A stretch of 64,000 nt of DNA, from assembly GCA_013215375.1 (NCBI GenBank), contig JABSRB010000016.1:1-64000 (forward strand). Reading direction: 5' to 3'. The notes under the pieces were generated by a model. That model saw only the letters and a list, made by a program, of their open reading frames with translations. It had not been told where the DNA came from and searched no databases. The first letter of the stretch is position 1. Each line of letters opens with the position of its first letter. Positions 9,733 through 20,602 of this stretch are shown here, one piece after another. The DNA comes from Oceanospirillaceae bacterium (GTDB taxonomy: Bacteria > Pseudomonadota > Gammaproteobacteria > Pseudomonadales > Balneatricaceae). A program made the translations under genes and the position numbers.

Positions 9733-10215
9733 TTGGAGTGTTTAATGAAAATCAGTAAATTGGCAATAGTCCCACTTGTTTTAATCTTGAGTGCCTGTAA
9801 TTCAATGCCGCAAAAACCAGCCGCTGAGGCCAATGTTAAACCAGTACAGCAGCCTATTATAAACGCAGAGCAAGGAGATGCTTTGTATGCCAAAAAAGAG
9901 TATCGCCAAGCGCTCGCTATCTATAAAGGGTTACACGAAAAAGCCCCCAAAGATACACATGTATTGTTTCGCATCGCCAATATCTATTCACATCTGAAGG
10001 TGCATAAATTAGCTATTAAGCATTATGAGCTGGCGTTGAACCAAGATAAACACTTAACCAAGGCCTGGTATAACTTGGGTGTAGTGCATATGAAAGAAGC
10101 GGCGAAAACCTGGGGGAATATGAGTAAATATACCAACAAGGATGAACCTTTAGCGCAATCGGCTGAGCATTACCATCAAGGGCTAGTGGCGCTGATCAAT
10201 CCAGAGAAACGTTAA
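9733..10215 (+). CDS. TPR lipoprotein, TadD-like
   Basis: Lipobox (LILSACNS) and TPR repeats in Tad context. Confidence 0.7.
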   Translation: MECLMKISKLAIVPLVLILSACNSMPQKPAAEANVKPVQQPIINAEQGDALYAKKEYRQALAIYKGLHEKAPKDTHVLFRIANIYSHLKVHKLAIKHYELALNQDKHLTKAWYNLGVVHMKEAAKTWGNMSKYTNKDEPLAQSAEHYHQGLVALINPEKR

Positions 10216-11223
10216 TTGATGATCCACTGTAAACAGAGAAGGAGCTTGTCCGAGAATAGCGATCGTAGCGAGGGCTTGGATAATTTAGGTAAATTTAACG
10301 GTCATTTGAGGCGAATAAATTGTCTGGAACAATTTATAATGCCAGCCCCGAAGGGGAGAGGCATAGGGACATGCCGAATAATAGCGTGCTATTTAACGAA
10401 ATTGAGCGTTGGATTTAACAAAATAGACGAATCCGCAGTAGATCAGTCTGTTCTCGGACAGGCTCCTAGTAAGCAAAGTGGCCAGGCAATGGTAGAGATG
10501 ATTGTCATCTCTTTTACGGCGCTGTTATTACTTTTTGGTATTATTCAATTCGCACTTTTATACAATGCAAAAACGGTATTGAATTATGCTACTTTTGAAG
10601 CGGCGCGAATCGGCGCATTGAATTATGCACACCCTGACGCTATGCGCTTGGCGTTAGCACAAAAACTTGCTGTTTTAGAGCCGGTAACACCATTAGAAAA
10701 ACTAAGTTTTGTCCCTACAATGGTGTGGGATAAAACCAAGGATTATCAGCAATTGGTTGCACAACAAGAGGGCTTCTTGGAGGAATTTGATTCTATTGCA
10801 TGTATTAAGAGGGTCAGTCCAACTGATAATTCTGGACATTGGCAAAGTGCTATAAAAGCCCCTGGTGGCGTAGACAGTATTCCAAATGATCATTTGTTAC
10901 ATAGAGATAGAGACCTTGATAGTGAAGGTCTTTCAATTCAAGATGCTAACCTTTTAAAAATATCTGTGAGTTACTGTCCAAAAATGATAGTGCCTATTGT
11001 GTCCTCTGTGGTTAAAAATTTGATGCTGCTTGATCGATATAATGAACTCCCAGTCAGCGGCAGTTTTATGGAAAACCAACTTGAGGGCTATCTGCCTCCT
11101 GATAGCTTGACTGAGTTTCAAACGTCTTGTTATGAAAACAATCGATTTCCAATGGTTGCCCAAGCGTTAATTCGTATGCAAACGCCTGTTGGAAAGTATT
11201 CGTTTTCGGACTGTGGAAGTTGA
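10216..11223 (+). CDS. TadE-like pseudopilin with an anomalous N-terminal extension
   Basis: KQSGQAMVEMIVISFTALLLLFGIIQFALLYNAKTVLNYATFEAARIGALN is canonical TadE; the ~90 upstream residues are encoded largely by an inverted-repeat element (10240-10467). True start uncertain. Confidence 0.65.
   Translation: MMIHCKQRRSLSENSDRSEGLDNLGKFNGHLRRINCLEQFIMPAPKGRGIGTCRIIACYLTKLSVGFNKIDESAVDQSVLGQAPSKQSGQAMVEMIVISFTALLLLFGIIQFALLYNAKTVLNYATFEAARIGALNYAHPDAMRLALAQKLAVLEPVTPLEKLSFVPTMVWDKTKDYQQLVAQQEGFLEEFDSIACIKRVSPTDNSGHWQSAIKAPGGVDSIPNDHLLHRDRDLDSEGLSIQDANLLKISVSYCPKMIVPIVSSVVKNLMLLDRYNELPVSGSFMENQLEGYLPPDSLTEFQTSCYENNRFPMVAQALIRMQTPVGKYSFSDCGS
10240..10467. repeat. MITE-like element with terminal inverted repeats (element 1)
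   Basis: GGAGCTTGTCCGAGAA (10241-10256) versus TTCTCGGACAGGCTCC (10451-10466), 15/16 as inverted repeat. Internal hairpins: ATAAATTGT/ACAATTTAT (10315-10337), CCCC-GAA-GGGG (10346-10356), GGCAT/ATGCC (10360-10375), AATAGC/GCTATT (10380-10393). Confidence 0.75.
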
Positions 11224-13849: not shown

Positions 13850-16800
13850 TTAAAGCACAATACTGGAATTGCGCAGCGCATCGTCATTAGCGCTAGTATC
13901 TAGCACTTCTACATTGGCCGGTGTATTTTCAATAACACTGTGTATTAGCTTGCTGCTATTTGTTGATGTAAAGGCAGGTGCTGTTTGCGTTTGGCTTATC
14001 TGCTGTGAAAATAACAGCTCTACACTGTTAGAATGGCTGCTCAACTCAATAGAAAACTGACTTAATGCTGCATCATCTTGCTCGGTAAAATTAAGCCAGA
14101 CATCCGCCATTTGATGGCTGTCGCCACTGCTATCTGTCCACTGTGATTGCTTGCCAATTAAGTTGTCGTTTTGCCATTCATTGGTATCGCTGGCCAGTAA
14201 ATTGAGCTCGGCGACATTGCTGTCTTTTAAATAGGTGAGCTCCCCCTCTTGGACTATGGCGTCGCTATTTCTATCTTGCCAGGTCTGTAATTCATTAAAC
14301 AGTTCATCAAAGGCATTGATCACTCCGTCGTGGTTGCTGTCTAAATCTGCTAAAGCAGCGTATCCATCCTTGGCGTTACTGCCGTTATTAAGTCGGGTTG
14401 CGCTGCCGAATAGCTCGTTGGCGGCGTTTATTTGACCGTCTCCGTTGATGTCGCGGACTAGCAAAGCATCGTCATTGGCTACCCATGCGGTATGCTCTTT
14501 GACACCATCCCCGTCGATATCGAAGCTGACGCCAGTTGCTAAGGTGGTAGTTTCAATACCGTCGCCGTCGAGATCGAGGATGATGGGTGTCGCTAAAATA
14601 AGTTCGGCGGCGCGCACTTCTAAGATGGTGAAACCGTTGCCTAAACCATTTAATATTGAATCGTGGCCGATAATACGAAATTTGGCGATAGTATCTGAGT
14701 CGTTAATTTCAGCGGATAAAGCTTGGGTGATATTGACCCTAAGGTGAGCTTGAACGTTGTCGGGTATGGCTAAATGTTCAATAGTACCTAGTAGCGTATC
14801 AGAGGCATCAAAGACTTGAATATCAAAATCATTGTCGCGAGTTAAATTTGTATCTCTGCCGTATATATCGATGACCAATGCATTGTTATTAGCTGATTGG
14901 GTGTATTGAGTATTTAGATCGTAGTTTAAAACGACGTCAACACCATCGAGCTCATCTCCGTGAAAGCCCGCATTGCTTGAATAAGTTTGATTGGGAGCAG
15001 GCGATGCAGGGTTTAATGCCTGATAATTAAATGCATCGCTCAAAGTTGCTTCTAAAGAGCCACTAAAGCCACTCACAGAACTGCCGGTATTATTGGCGGT
15101 TAAAGTGATTTCGTTGGATGTATTTACCAAGTCGGCAGCGCGAATTTCCATTAAAGTGAAGTAGTTGTTAGGGTTGCTTGTTGTTGAGTCGTGGGCGATT
15201 ATCCTAAACGCACCAATAGTATCGCCGTCCGCTAGGACGGGCGATAATAATTCACTGACATTGACTCTTAAATGGGGTGCAGTTGTATTGGGCAGTGCTA
15301 GATTTTCTATACTGCCTAGTAGTGCTCCATTGTGGTCAAAGATTAAAATGTCGAAATCGTCATCGGTGGTGTTATAACTATCTCGACCATAGAGGTCGAT
15401 GACCAAGGCATTATTATTAGAAAATTGCGTATAAAGTGTATTCAAATCGTAGTTTAAAACAGCGTCGTTGCCAGGGGCTTCTACGCTGTGGAAACCAACA
15501 TTGGTCGGCTGGTAGTGGTGATTTGGTGATGCTGAAATTGGGTTCAGTGGCTGATAATCAAAATTATCCGTCAAAGTTGCCTCCATAGACCCACTAAAGC
15601 CACTCACGGAACTGCCGATATTATTGGCCGTTAAAGTGATTTCAGTGGATATATTGATGATATCAGCGGCGCGAATCTCCATTAAAGTAAAGTAGTTGTT
15701 TGGGTTGCTAGTCGTTGAATCGTGGGCGATTATTCTAAACGCACCGACAGTATCGCCATCCAATAGAGGGGGGGATAATAAATCACTTACATTCACCCTT
15801 AAGTGGGCTGTGCTTGTATCGGGCAGCGCTAAATTTTCGATGCTGCCCAGTAATACCCCACTGCTGTCAAAGATTAAAATATCGAAATCGTTATCAGTGG
15901 TAAAATAGTTATCTCTACCATAGAGGTCGATGACAAAAGAATTATTATTAGAAAATTGTCGATAGTGTGTATTCAAATCATAGTTTAAGACAGCGTCGTC
16001 GCCAGGGGCTTCTACGCTGTGGAAACCAACATTAGTCGGCTGGTAGTGGTGATTTGGTGAAGATGAAATTGGATTCATTGGCTGGTAATCAAAACTATCC
16101 GTCAAGGTCGCCTGCAAAGACCCACTAAAACCACTCACAGAACTGCCAGTATTATTGGCGGTTAACGTTATCTCAGTAGGCAGAGCTAGTAACTGCAGGG
16201 TAGTTGTCACAGGCTGTGAATCGTCGATGCCGTCATTAATTCGCCAGCTAATATTACGATCAGTAGTGTCGGGATTAATACTGTTGATGTTGGTATAAGT
16301 GACACTGCGCAGGGCAGCTTGGTACTGCGTTATCGAACCGCTGCCAGTCAAAGTCAGCACGCCGCTGCTAGCATCGTAATTACCGTTAATGTTGGCTGTA
16401 TTGGTAAAACTGAGTAAGTCTTCATTAGCTATAAAACCAGCATCGATGTTAATAGATGCAGAGACCAACATGGTGTTATCAGCGTCAGCCAGCATGATTT
16501 TATCGGCAATAGTAGCTCCCATGCCTCCAATTGCAAAAGAGCTGAAAGAGCTGATAGATGCAGGACTACCAAAGGCGACAGCATCATTGTTGTTAATTGA
16601 TTGATCTGCTAGTGGATCGCTGCCATCAAAGGCGTAGTTGAAAATAGTGGCGCTATCTTGATTGAGGTCTGAATAGTCGCCGCTGGCGAGGGTCGTTATT
16701 TCGGCCTGTGACAAGGTTCTAGCCAATACCGCAACGTTATCCATACTGCCTTTAAATGGATGGGTGCCCACACTAGAGTTACCAATAAGATTATAATCGC

Positions 16801-19800
16801 GAGTGATATTATCGGGGGTGTGGATAACTAATGGGCCTGTTTCAACAACGCTATTAATAGTGACAGTAATAATAGAAGGGTCTATGGCAATGCCATTTTT
16901 ATAGATAGTCACAGTGCCATCAATGGCGTGATTGATGACTATATTGATAGTCTCGTTCTCTGTGAAAAAGTCTGCTACTTTAATTGTTTTCGCGATGCCG
17001 CCAACCCGTACGGCATAATGTAAAGTGGTTGTTGCAGCAGAATTAGAGAGCCTTATGTTGTCTGTTACGCCTCCCGCTTTTGATAAATCTAAGATATGCC
17101 CAAAATTTTGCAGGGTTTCTATGGTGACAGTGGCCGCGATCGACATCCCTAAGAAATTACCGCTGCTGTCATGCAGGCCTTGATTCGCCATAATATCTGG
17201 CAGTGCTAAATGATCATCGATCCCATCGAAAGACATTTGTTGCTGGCCGCTAAAAACGAGTGGAATTTGGTTGGGAACTAACTCGACCAAGGTATTTACC
17301 ACCGCTGAGTCATCAATACCATCATTGACGCTCCAGCTAATAGTGCGATCAGCAGTGCTGGGGTTCACACTATTACTATTTGAGTAAGCCACACTGCGCA
17401 GTGCATCTTGGTACTGCTCAACAGTGGCACTACCTGTTAGAGTCATAACACCTGTGCTGGGGTTGTAGATACCGCTGATAACTGCGGTGTCGGTAAAAGA
17501 CAGTGAATCTTCAGTGCTGTCAAAACCTGTGTTAATACTAATAGTGGCGGAAGAGAGATGGGTGTTATCTGCATCAATCAACAGTATTTCAGCGCCGACA
17601 ATAATTTCAGATCCGCCAATAACGAAATCCACAGCATCGGTAATTGTTTGAGGAGCGCCAATAGCAGTTGCATCATATCCATTGCCACTTTGATCGGTGA
17701 GCGGATCGCTACCATCAAAAGCATAGTTAAAAATAGTCGCGCTGTCTTGATTGAGAGCGGAATAATCGCCGCTGGCGAGTGTGGTTATTTCGGCCTCTGA
17801 TAAGGTTCTGGCCACTAAGGAGATATTATCCATAGAGCCTTCAAAGAAAGCGGTGCCAGCGGCATGGGATTTTCCAATCAGGTTAGTGGTACGGGTCACG
17901 TTAACAGGGGTTAGGATAATTATTGGATCAGGAGCTGGTGAGTTATTAATAGTAATAGCATTAACAGCGGGATCAATTTCAATGCCATTTCTATAGATAG
18001 TCACCACGCCATTACTGGCGTGATTAATCACTAAGTCGACGTTTTGTCCGAGAGTGAAGAAATTTTGGACGTCGACGGCAAAGTTACTAGTACCGTCATT
18101 TATTTCGTAGCGTAATGTGGAGGTTGCCCATTTATTGGATATATATATATTATGGTTATTAGCCCCACCAGCAGATAAATCGATAATACGATTGAAATGA
18201 TTAAATGCATCCATGGTGACGCTTGCCGCTATCGACATGCCTAAGAAGTTACCGTTAGAGTCGTGCAAACCTTGATTTTGTAAAATAGTGGGGAATGTTA
18301 AATAATCATCGTTGCCATCAAATGCCATTTTCTGCTGGTTGCTAAAAACGAGTGGAACTTGGTTGGGAACTAACTCGACCAAGGTATTTACCACCGCTGA
18401 GTCATCAGTTCCATCATTGACGCTCCAGCTAATAGTGCGATCAGCCCTACTGGGATTCGCACTATTGCTATTTGAGTAAGCCACACTGCGCAGTGCATCT
18501 TGGTACTGCTCAACAGTGGCACTACCTGTTAGAGTCATAACACCTGTGCTGGTGTTGTAGTTACCGCTGATATTGGCAGTATTGGTAAAAGACAGCGAAT
18601 CTTCAGCGCTGTCAAAACCTGTGATAATGCTAATAGTGGCGGAAGATACATGGGTGTTATCTGCATCAATCAACAGTATTTCAGCGCCGACAATAATTTC
18701 AGATCCGCCAATAACGAAATCCACAGCATCGGTAATTGTTTGAGGACCGCCAATAGCGGTTGCATCATATCCATTGCCACTTTGATCGGTGAGCGGATCG
18801 CTACCATCAAAAGTGTAGTTGAAAATAGTGGCGCTATCTTGATTGAGTACGGCATAGTCGCCGCTAGCAAGATCGTCTATCTCACTTTGAGATAAAGTTC
18901 TTCCCAGCATAGCAATATTATCTATTGAGCCATCGATGTAGCGGCGGGTGGCAGAACTTGATGTTCCAATTAAATTATCGATGCGGGATTCATTAGGGGG
19001 AGGATTGACGTAAGTAGGTCCGGCAACTAATGTACCATTTTGATAAATACTAACCATACCATCACTAGCGTGATTAATAGTAACAGCGACGCTTTCCCCA
19101 AAGGTGAAGAAATTGGCGATATTAAGTGTATCTGGAAGGTGGCTGTCATAGACCAGATATTGAAATTCCCCAGGAACTGTGGTTAAACCCGCCATAATAT
19201 TTTTGTTAACGGCACCCCCTGCACCAAAATCGATAATCTTACCGTAGTGTTGATGTGCATCCATAGTTAGGGTGAATGCAATCGATAACCCCAAAAAATC
19301 ACCATTGCTGGCGTGTAAGCCTTGGTTGGCCATGATATTGGGTACTTCAAGATAATCATTAACACCATCAAAGTTCATTTGTTGCTGAGCGCTAAATAAT
19401 AGTGGAGCATCATTAATTGGATTGATATTGATAGTGGATGTAGCAGCTATTGAGTCTGAGTTACCATCATTAACCCTCCAGCTGATGATGCGATTATCGA
19501 CACTTGGGTTTAGGTGGTTATTGTTTGTATAAGTGACGCTTTGCAAAGCGCTCTGATACTCGCTAATAGTTGCGCTTCCGCTCAAGCTTAATACACCCGT
19601 CGCTGTGTTATAGCTTCCTGTGATTGCTCCTGAGTCTATAAAACTTAATAAGTCTTCAGTATTGTTAAAACCGCTGCCAATACTAATACTTGCACTCATT
19701 AACAGGCTGTCATCAATATCTGATAAGTTCAAACTGGCATCTATTATTTGCGCACCATCACCTTCTGTATAAATAAGCGTATCGTTGGCGCCTTCCATAA

Positions 19801-20602
19801 TCGGAGCATAGTTAGTATTGATCACGTAATTGGCAGAGAAAGCCTCGCTGCCGATGTTACCTAAAATGTCTGTATAGCTAGCGCTGACTGTAACTATATT
19901 GGTGGTATCTAATAAGTGTGCGGTGGGTGTTAATGTGGCCCTGTAAACCTTTGCATCGCCAGTGACTGCTAAGTTGCTGATAATGGCATTGTCGGCATTG
20001 ATATCGGCTAAAGTGAAATCGACGGGTGGCTGGTTAAAGGTAAAAGTAATTAGCGTTGTTTCACCTGCACTGAGATTATTATCGGCAATATAAATACTCA
20101 GGCTAGGCTCCAATTGATCAACAAGAATGCCTGACGTTTCAATGGGGCTTTTGATGTCCGCAATATCAATGTTAGTTGTGCCTGCCGGAAAGTCTGCTTT
20201 TATTAATTGATTATTAGCGATTGATTGATCGAGTAATTCTGAATAATTAGTGTCATCTGTCATGAATATATTGGCTTCAACAATGGACCCTAATGGTTCA
20301 TCGATAATGGTCTCTTCAATGTTAAGAGAGAGCAGTGCGTCTAATTCTTGGTTTTCTAACACTAAACGACAGGGGTTTTCCCCGGTACAGTTGATGAAGT
20401 AATCTTGCATGGTAATGCTGGTGCCATCAGCAAAACTCACTATCAAGCTATCACCTTGACGTACTGCTTTTGTAACAGGCGCTGAAGTGGTGGCATCGGG
20501 CTCTGGAATTATTTGGTAGGAGGCGTTTGGGTCAGTGGCAATAGATAATACTTGGCCGGGTAATACCTTGAGTAAACTTAGGCCGCTGCTGATATATAAC
20601 AT
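13850..20602 (-). CDS. Giant type I-secreted adhesin-like protein with LamG-like and other tandem repeats
   Basis: 2250 aa; repeated cadherin/BIG-like and LamG-like units; C-terminal DLDGDGIETT...DINGDGQINAANELFG...DSNHDGVINAFDELF calcium-binding region typical of RTX-type proteins; adjacent T1SS genes. Confidence 0.85.
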   Translation of the reverse strand: MLYISSGLSLLKVLPGQVLSIATDPNASYQIIPEPDATTSAPVTKAVRQGDSLIVSFADGTSITMQDYFINCTGENPCRLVLENQELDALLSLNIEETIIDEPLGSIVEANIFMTDDTNYSELLDQSIANNQLIKADFPAGTTNIDIADIKSPIETSGILVDQLEPSLSIYIADNNLSAGETTLITFTFNQPPVDFTLADINADNAIISNLAVTGDAKVYRATLTPTAHLLDTTNIVTVSASYTDILGNIGSEAFSANYVINTNYAPIMEGANDTLIYTEGDGAQIIDASLNLSDIDDSLLMSASISIGSGFNNTEDLLSFIDSGAITGSYNTATGVLSLSGSATISEYQSALQSVTYTNNNHLNPSVDNRIISWRVNDGNSDSIAATSTININPINDAPLLFSAQQQMNFDGVNDYLEVPNIMANQGLHASNGDFLGLSIAFTLTMDAHQHYGKIIDFGAGGAVNKNIMAGLTTVPGEFQYLVYDSHLPDTLNIANFFTFGESVAVTINHASDGMVSIYQNGTLVAGPTYVNPPPNESRIDNLIGTSSSATRRYIDGSIDNIAMLGRTLSQSEIDDLASGDYAVLNQDSATIFNYTFDGSDPLTDQSGNGYDATAIGGPQTITDAVDFVIGGSEIIVGAEILLIDADNTHVSSATISIITGFDSAEDSLSFTNTANISGNYNTSTGVMTLTGSATVEQYQDALRSVAYSNSNSANPSRADRTISWSVNDGTDDSAVVNTLVELVPNQVPLVFSNQQKMAFDGNDDYLTFPTILQNQGLHDSNGNFLGMSIAASVTMDAFNHFNRIIDLSAGGANNHNIYISNKWATSTLRYEINDGTSNFAVDVQNFFTLGQNVDLVINHASNGVVTIYRNGIEIDPAVNAITINNSPAPDPIIILTPVNVTRTTNLIGKSHAAGTAFFEGSMDNISLVARTLSEAEITTLASGDYSALNQDSATIFNYAFDGSDPLTDQSGNGYDATAIGAPQTITDAVDFVIGGSEIIVGAEILLIDADNTHLSSATISINTGFDSTEDSLSFTDTAVISGIYNPSTGVMTLTGSATVEQYQDALRSVAYSNSNSVNPSTADRTISWSVNDGIDDSAVVNTLVELVPNQIPLVFSGQQQMSFDGIDDHLALPDIMANQGLHDSSGNFLGMSIAATVTIETLQNFGHILDLSKAGGVTDNIRLSNSAATTTLHYAVRVGGIAKTIKVADFFTENETINIVINHAIDGTVTIYKNGIAIDPSIITVTINSVVETGPLVIHTPDNITRDYNLIGNSSVGTHPFKGSMDNVAVLARTLSQAEITTLASGDYSDLNQDSATIFNYAFDGSDPLADQSINNNDAVAFGSPASISSFSSFAIGGMGATIADKIMLADADNTMLVSASINIDAGFIANEDLLSFTNTANINGNYDASSGVLTLTGSGSITQYQAALRSVTYTNINSINPDTTDRNISWRINDGIDDSQPVTTTLQLLALPTEITLTANNTGSSVSGFSGSLQATLTDSFDYQPMNPISSSPNHHYQPTNVGFHSVEAPGDDAVLNYDLNTHYRQFSNNNSFVIDLYGRDNYFTTDNDFDILIFDSSGVLLGSIENLALPDTSTAHLRVNVSDLLSPPLLDGDTVGAFRIIAHDSTTSNPNNYFTLMEIRAADIINISTEITLTANNIGSSVSGFSGSMEATLTDNFDYQPLNPISASPNHHYQPTNVGFHSVEAPGNDAVLNYDLNTLYTQFSNNNALVIDLYGRDSYNTTDDDFDILIFDHNGALLGSIENLALPNTTAPHLRVNVSELLSPVLADGDTIGAFRIIAHDSTTSNPNNYFTLMEIRAADLVNTSNEITLTANNTGSSVSGFSGSLEATLSDAFNYQALNPASPAPNQTYSSNAGFHGDELDGVDVVLNYDLNTQYTQSANNNALVIDIYGRDTNLTRDNDFDIQVFDASDTLLGTIEHLAIPDNVQAHLRVNITQALSAEINDSDTIAKFRIIGHDSILNGLGNGFTILEVRAAELILATPIILDLDGDGIETTTLATGVSFDIDGDGVKEHTAWVANDDALLVRDINGDGQINAANELFGSATRLNNGSNAKDGYAALADLDSNHDGVINAFDELFNELQTWQDRNSDAIVQEGELTYLKDSNVAELNLLASDTNEWQNDNLIGKQSQWTDSSGDSHQMADVWLNFTEQDDAALSQFSIELSSHSNSVELLFSQQISQTQTAPAFTSTNSSKLIHSVIENTPANVEVLDTSANDDALRNSSIVL
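14605..16175 (-). repeat. Three tandem ~531-bp intragenic repeats
   Basis: EITLTANN(T/I)GSSVSGFSGS(L/M)xATL...EIRAA(D/E) motif three times; matching DNA landmarks at about 15165 and 15696. Confidence 0.85.
16200..19420 (-). repeat. Tandem ~1.09-kb intragenic repeats (LamG-like unit plus linker)
   Basis: LSQAEITTLASGDYS-LNQDSATIFNYAFDGSDPL and VEQYQDALRSVAYSNSNS recur; near-identical DNA at 17558 and 18650, related copy near 16467. Confidence 0.85.

Follow-up and report, generated by a model that had tools for sequence, protein, structure and literature searches.

Fusions of bacterial MITEs in frame with host genes are already known, from the RPEs of Rickettsia (PMC10969869) and the QMITEs of Coxiella (PMC5896051). 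RPEs are small palindromes of about 150 bp that lie in frame in protein genes and are apparently translated; nearly half of them are found in open reading frames (ORFs), with a conserved peptide per family (PMC10969869). QMITE1 and QMITE2 are gammaproteobacterial MITEs with about 50 copies, some of which overlap ORFs or lie in frame, as in a C-terminal extension of enhC (PMC5896051). The element described here lies in a predicted prepilin leader. Such leaders are cytoplasmic and of variable length, with Gly or Ala as the last residue, and are removed by prepilin peptidase, which cuts on the cytoplasmic side just before the hydrophobic stretch (PMC10191384).

Here we describe a MITE that lies in frame in a TadE-like pseudopilin gene, within a 64,000-nucleotide stretch of an Oceanospirillaceae genome (hereafter the window). 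It shares with the RPEs its small size, palindromic structure and in-frame position, and with the QMITEs its gammaproteobacterial host and a similar copy number. However, the frequent in-frame ORF insertion and conserved peptide of the RPE type were not found in this family: only 1 of 62 mapped copies is coding, most copies have a stop in the frame used here, and the coding segment lies in a predicted cleavable leader. Compared by target and extension sites, the family also differs from the QMITEs, whose extension sites are different and whose direct repeats vary in sequence and measure 2-3 nt or 7-11 nt (PMC5896051), whereas the window family duplicates TA in CTAG. What is unusual about the window insertion is its location in a disposable leader, not the in-frame fusion.

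A palindromic repeat in a TadE-like gene

The host gene (10219-11223, + strand) encodes 334 aa, 76 of them MITE-derived. Judged by its TadE domain, its G/xxxxE motif and its place in a tad locus, the product qualifies as a TadE-like pseudopilin. The domain (PF07811, residues 88-130, E=9e-10) follows directly after the leader and is untouched by the insert, and the prepilin-peptidase motif G/QAMVE (residues 88-93; 10480-10497, + strand) is intact, with G88, Q89, A90, M91, V92 and E93 invariant across the window protein and all orthologues. From this motif we infer cleavage after an 88-aa leader (10219-10482, + strand) that comprises native MIHCKQR, the 76 MITE-derived residues and native SKQSG. 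Upstream lies a TPR (TadD-like) lipoprotein gene (9745-10215, + strand), whose stop is 3 nt before the pseudopilin ATG; other neighbours encode RcpC, a secretin, T2SSE (a TadA-like ATPase) and two T2SSF proteins. Two further ORFs in the locus, 953-1867 and 2533-2985, have no Pfam matches and carry the pilin-like leader motifs GQAMTEM and GQSMIEY, with leaders of 6 and 13 aa.

The element itself is a long-form copy of 226 bp (GGAG...CTCC; 10241-10466, + strand), its ends placed by reference to copies that stand between CTA and TAG. Its left terminal inverted repeat (TIR; 10240-10259, + strand) and right TIR (10448-10467, - strand) are complementary at 18/20 positions, and at 15/16 in the outer 16. 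The duplicated TA brings the addition to 228 bp (10240-10467), which is open in the pseudopilin frame and joins MIHCKQR to SKQSGQAMVEM. Thus the inverted ends around some 228 bp, or 76 codons, and the stop-free frame described in an earlier, sequence-only reading of this DNA are both confirmed; indeed, all of its factual statements hold except the position of one TTG codon, discussed below. On the right, the target TAG is present (10467-10469, + strand). On the left, the flank is GAA (10238-10240) rather than the CTA of the family, reflecting either decay or an atypical target. Within the element, about 66 bp (10318-10383, + strand), bordered by GAATA direct repeats within which the exact ends are ambiguous, form the additional segment that marks the long copies.

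The stretch at 10240-10467 belongs to a palindromic MITE family of which the same genome holds about 60 copies, usually 160 bp long with a few of about 226 bp. The TIRs of the family are 20 nt long. The 228 bp have 74 BLAST matches in their own assembly, so the element is not single-copy, and the TIR pattern gave 51+51 matches in this genome, against 4+3 for a reversed control. Its status as a mobile repeat is far beyond chance. Profile searches of fetched loci mapped 62 merged copies or fragments, including 44 full-length short copies, mostly of exactly 160 bp. Most full copies are flanked as CTA-GGAG...CTCC-TAG, which makes CTAG the target of the family, with TA duplicated. The segment between GAATA repeats is present in the window copy and in five others (L055-L059), the canonical 160-bp copies being without it.

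The RNA of the window copy is predicted to fold with an energy of -88.6 kcal/mol (z = -8.6 relative to dinucleotide-shuffled sequences), and the hairpin is conserved across 38 copies, with double compensatory changes in 16 of the 47 predicted pairs. Within the window, the element had no Rfam match, and neither a promoter nor a terminator was found inside it. The 66-bp segment of the long copies has hairpins of its own and may have been either gained or lost; a congeneric genome (G004; L118, L119) has long forms too, in degenerate state.

Empty-site orthologues and the site of insertion

Three congeneric genomes (G001, G003 and G006) and one Pseudomonadales assembly from further away (L054) have orthologues of the pseudopilin without the MITE. 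The leaders of these proteins measure 6-16 aa, and none shares the long N-terminus. The closest orthologue, G003, reads MIGMIPR-SKQSGQAMVEM where the window protein reads MIHCKQR-[76 codons]-SKQSGQAMVEM, and its length equals that of the window protein minus the 76 inserted residues. As the sequences on either side, the gene upstream and the TadE body, are both orthologous to their counterparts in the empty-site relatives, the insertion lies within leader codons. The sequence-only reading had suspected that the original leader was split by a MITE-like element; the matching junction residues in G003 bear out the split, and the multi-copy state, the target-site signature and the empty sites together bear out the element. 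Apart from the MITE, the window pseudopilin has an 11-aa insertion (FVPTMVWDKTK region) and does not have a C-terminal tail of about 12 aa that is present in the congeners.

We also considered an assembly artefact, in which a repeat copy from another place was wrongly joined to this locus or collapsed with it. Such an artefact is conceivable for a high-copy repeat in a fragmented assembly of 96 contigs, and the left flank does not have the canonical CTA. However, the flanking genes match those of the empty-site orthologues, and the window copy is complete at both ends and distinct from all others (the closest is 93% identical), which makes an artefact highly improbable.

An open copy in a family rich in stops

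Most copies of the family have several stops in most frames, and of the 62 mapped, only the window copy overlaps an ORF of at least 100 aa by half its length. Overlaps of other copies involve short frames only, plus a remnant of 57 bp that precedes the start of an ABC-transporter gene. This remnant (L099) was considered as a second coding copy and rejected, because the transporter gene has its own GTG and Shine-Dalgarno sequence downstream of it. In the frame used by the pseudopilin, stops are found at the codon of 10285 in 40 of 48 other copies, at that of 10357 in 4 of 5 long copies and at that of 10444 in 34 of 49 other copies; all three codons are sense in the window copy. The gene remains a single ORF because the added 228 bp are divisible by 3, came in the right phase and carry no stop. 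A closely related short copy (L060:1669) is likewise free of stops in the pseudopilin frame and shares two of the three sense codons, while L059:1509 carries the third, and therefore selection for openness cannot be claimed. On these sequence comparisons, the openness of the window copy may have been inherited rather than selected.

We also weighed whether the insertion damages the gene, with the hairpin and the long leader blocking expression or processing and the open frame being accidental and transient. The hairpin is very stable and lies beside the start codon, the insertion may be fairly recent (the closest copy is 93% identical, and 1 base in 160 is private to the window copy), and the two other genes with pilin-like leader motifs, at the start of the locus, might compensate for a loss. 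Against this, all 334 codons including the insert are intact, with no frameshift, stop or raised dN, and this copy lacks all three of the stops that are common among its relatives. The dN of the mature part relative to an outgroup is 0.52, within the 0.47-0.59 of the empty-site genes, although a loss of function might not yet show in dN if the insertion is recent. We consider damage to be unlikely.

Translation start and probable fate of the leader

Only 3 nt separate the native ATG at 10219 from the stop of the upstream gene, and the corresponding starts in the congeners are 6 nt (G001) and 4 nt (G003) after their own upstream stops or further off (G006). The window gene and its orthologues in the three congeners all have weak Shine-Dalgarno sequences; together with the closeness of the ATG to the upstream stop, this suggests translational coupling.

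A different possibility, raised by the sequence-only reading, is that translation starts at a TTG or ATG inside the MITE, with the element supplying a new N-terminus. In-frame candidates do exist, at 10246, 10276, 10306, 10339 and 10402; the last is the TTG that had been placed near 10399, which is real but lies 3 nt further on. The TTG at 10246 is preceded by AGGAG, but at a distance of 1 nt, which is too close, and the TTG at 10402 has no Shine-Dalgarno sequence (dG +0.1 kcal/mol). The other candidates within the MITE are unremarkable and lie within the hairpin, and an ATG just beyond it, at 10489, would drop the cleavage glycine. As the native ATG still stands in its place behind the upstream gene and no internal start has a better usable Shine-Dalgarno sequence, the proposal that the element provides a new start finds no backing, and we regard an internal start as quite improbable.

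We therefore favour, as the probable course, translation from the native start with an 88-aa leader that is cut after G88, so that the ancestral mature start is kept; the start used, the processing and the function of the mature protein are what we infer here. In this reading, a non-autonomous palindromic element entered the leader codons at a site resembling CTAG. Translation from ATG 10219, in coupling with the TPR gene before it, would then yield a prepilin with a hydrophilic, unstructured 88-aa leader (junction MIHCKQRRSLSE). Prepilin peptidase would cut between G88 and Q89 on the cytoplasmic side, the whole MITE-encoded segment would be lost with the leader, and the mature pseudopilin would keep its ancestral start. 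An AlphaFold2 model, of low confidence overall (mean pLDDT 48.6), has residues 1-86 unstructured (pLDDT <50) and a helix from residue 86. A disposable leader would also explain why the only gene-borne copy sits where it does. Counting against this long-leader explanation, the predicted leader is far longer than the 6-16 aa of the orthologues. The earlier objection that about 90 aa would be unusual for a prepilin-peptidase substrate is correct, but such a length is not forbidden, as prepilin leaders vary in length (PMC10191384). Additionally, an mRNA hairpin of -88 kcal/mol just after the start codon could depress translation, and the non-canonical left target flank also speaks against this explanation.

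More generally, cleavable prepilin leaders might be safe landing sites for coding MITEs, with prepilin peptidase acting as a protein-level eraser, an idea that we put forward tentatively and hold to be somewhat doubtful. If it is true, a mobile palindrome is translated within an 88-aa leader while the mature pilin is unchanged. With its empty-site relatives, the locus offers a clean case of a bacterial mobile palindrome turned into coding sequence at a place where host signal processing would remove it. It bears on the leader length tolerated by prepilin peptidase and the secretion route, and on whether signal or leader regions are favoured refuges for in-frame mobile elements.

Distribution of the family and search for a partner element

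Beyond the genus, the TIR was found at <=1 mismatch in 18 of 397 genomes of the order, and two genomes of another family carry about 80 or more TIRs per orientation (<=2 mismatches). Among viral contigs, plasmids and phages, the search returned one informative match, a MITE copy on plasmid pMPC6-328K of Pseudomonas sp. MPC6 (L209:2502-2666). This copy aligns over its full length at 78% identity, with 165 bp between the outer TA ends, and the TIR TAGGAGNCTGWCCGAGAA is common to it and to MITEs in other families of the order; unlike the window copy, it is in a different host and has no annotated gene beneath it. This conjugative plasmid of an Antarctic Pseudomonas is a possible vehicle between genera. 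Within the literature covered, a search for the family TIR sequence gave no relevant match.

The search for an autonomous partner IS covered a subset of the loci of two transposase families, PF01609 and PF13358, in the window's own genome, congeneric genomes and order-level genomes, and none of those examined was such a partner; searches for TIR pairs in the same genomes gave no IS bounded by the family TIRs (TAGGAGNCTGTCCGAGAAC). Two candidates were rejected: that in L134 has different TIRs (GAGGCTGTAGAAAAAC) and does not lie at CTAG, and in L231 an IS630-type gene has MITE copies and a stretch of N next to it but does not form an IS bounded by the TIRs.

Some copies are arranged in tandem and share a TA (L060:1507-1828, L073:1348-1670, L080:1506-1806 and L092:1507-1762); regeneration of the CTAG target at both ends of an inserted copy would explain such arrays. 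At the other extreme are very short elements that amount to hardly more than two fused TIRs, of 28 bp in two cases (L152:1492-1519 and L178:1492-1519) and of about 53 bp in one (G000:C15:31476-31528). Finally, near the tad locus, the window contains a 2250-aa ORF (13850-20602, - strand) with long internal sequence repeats.
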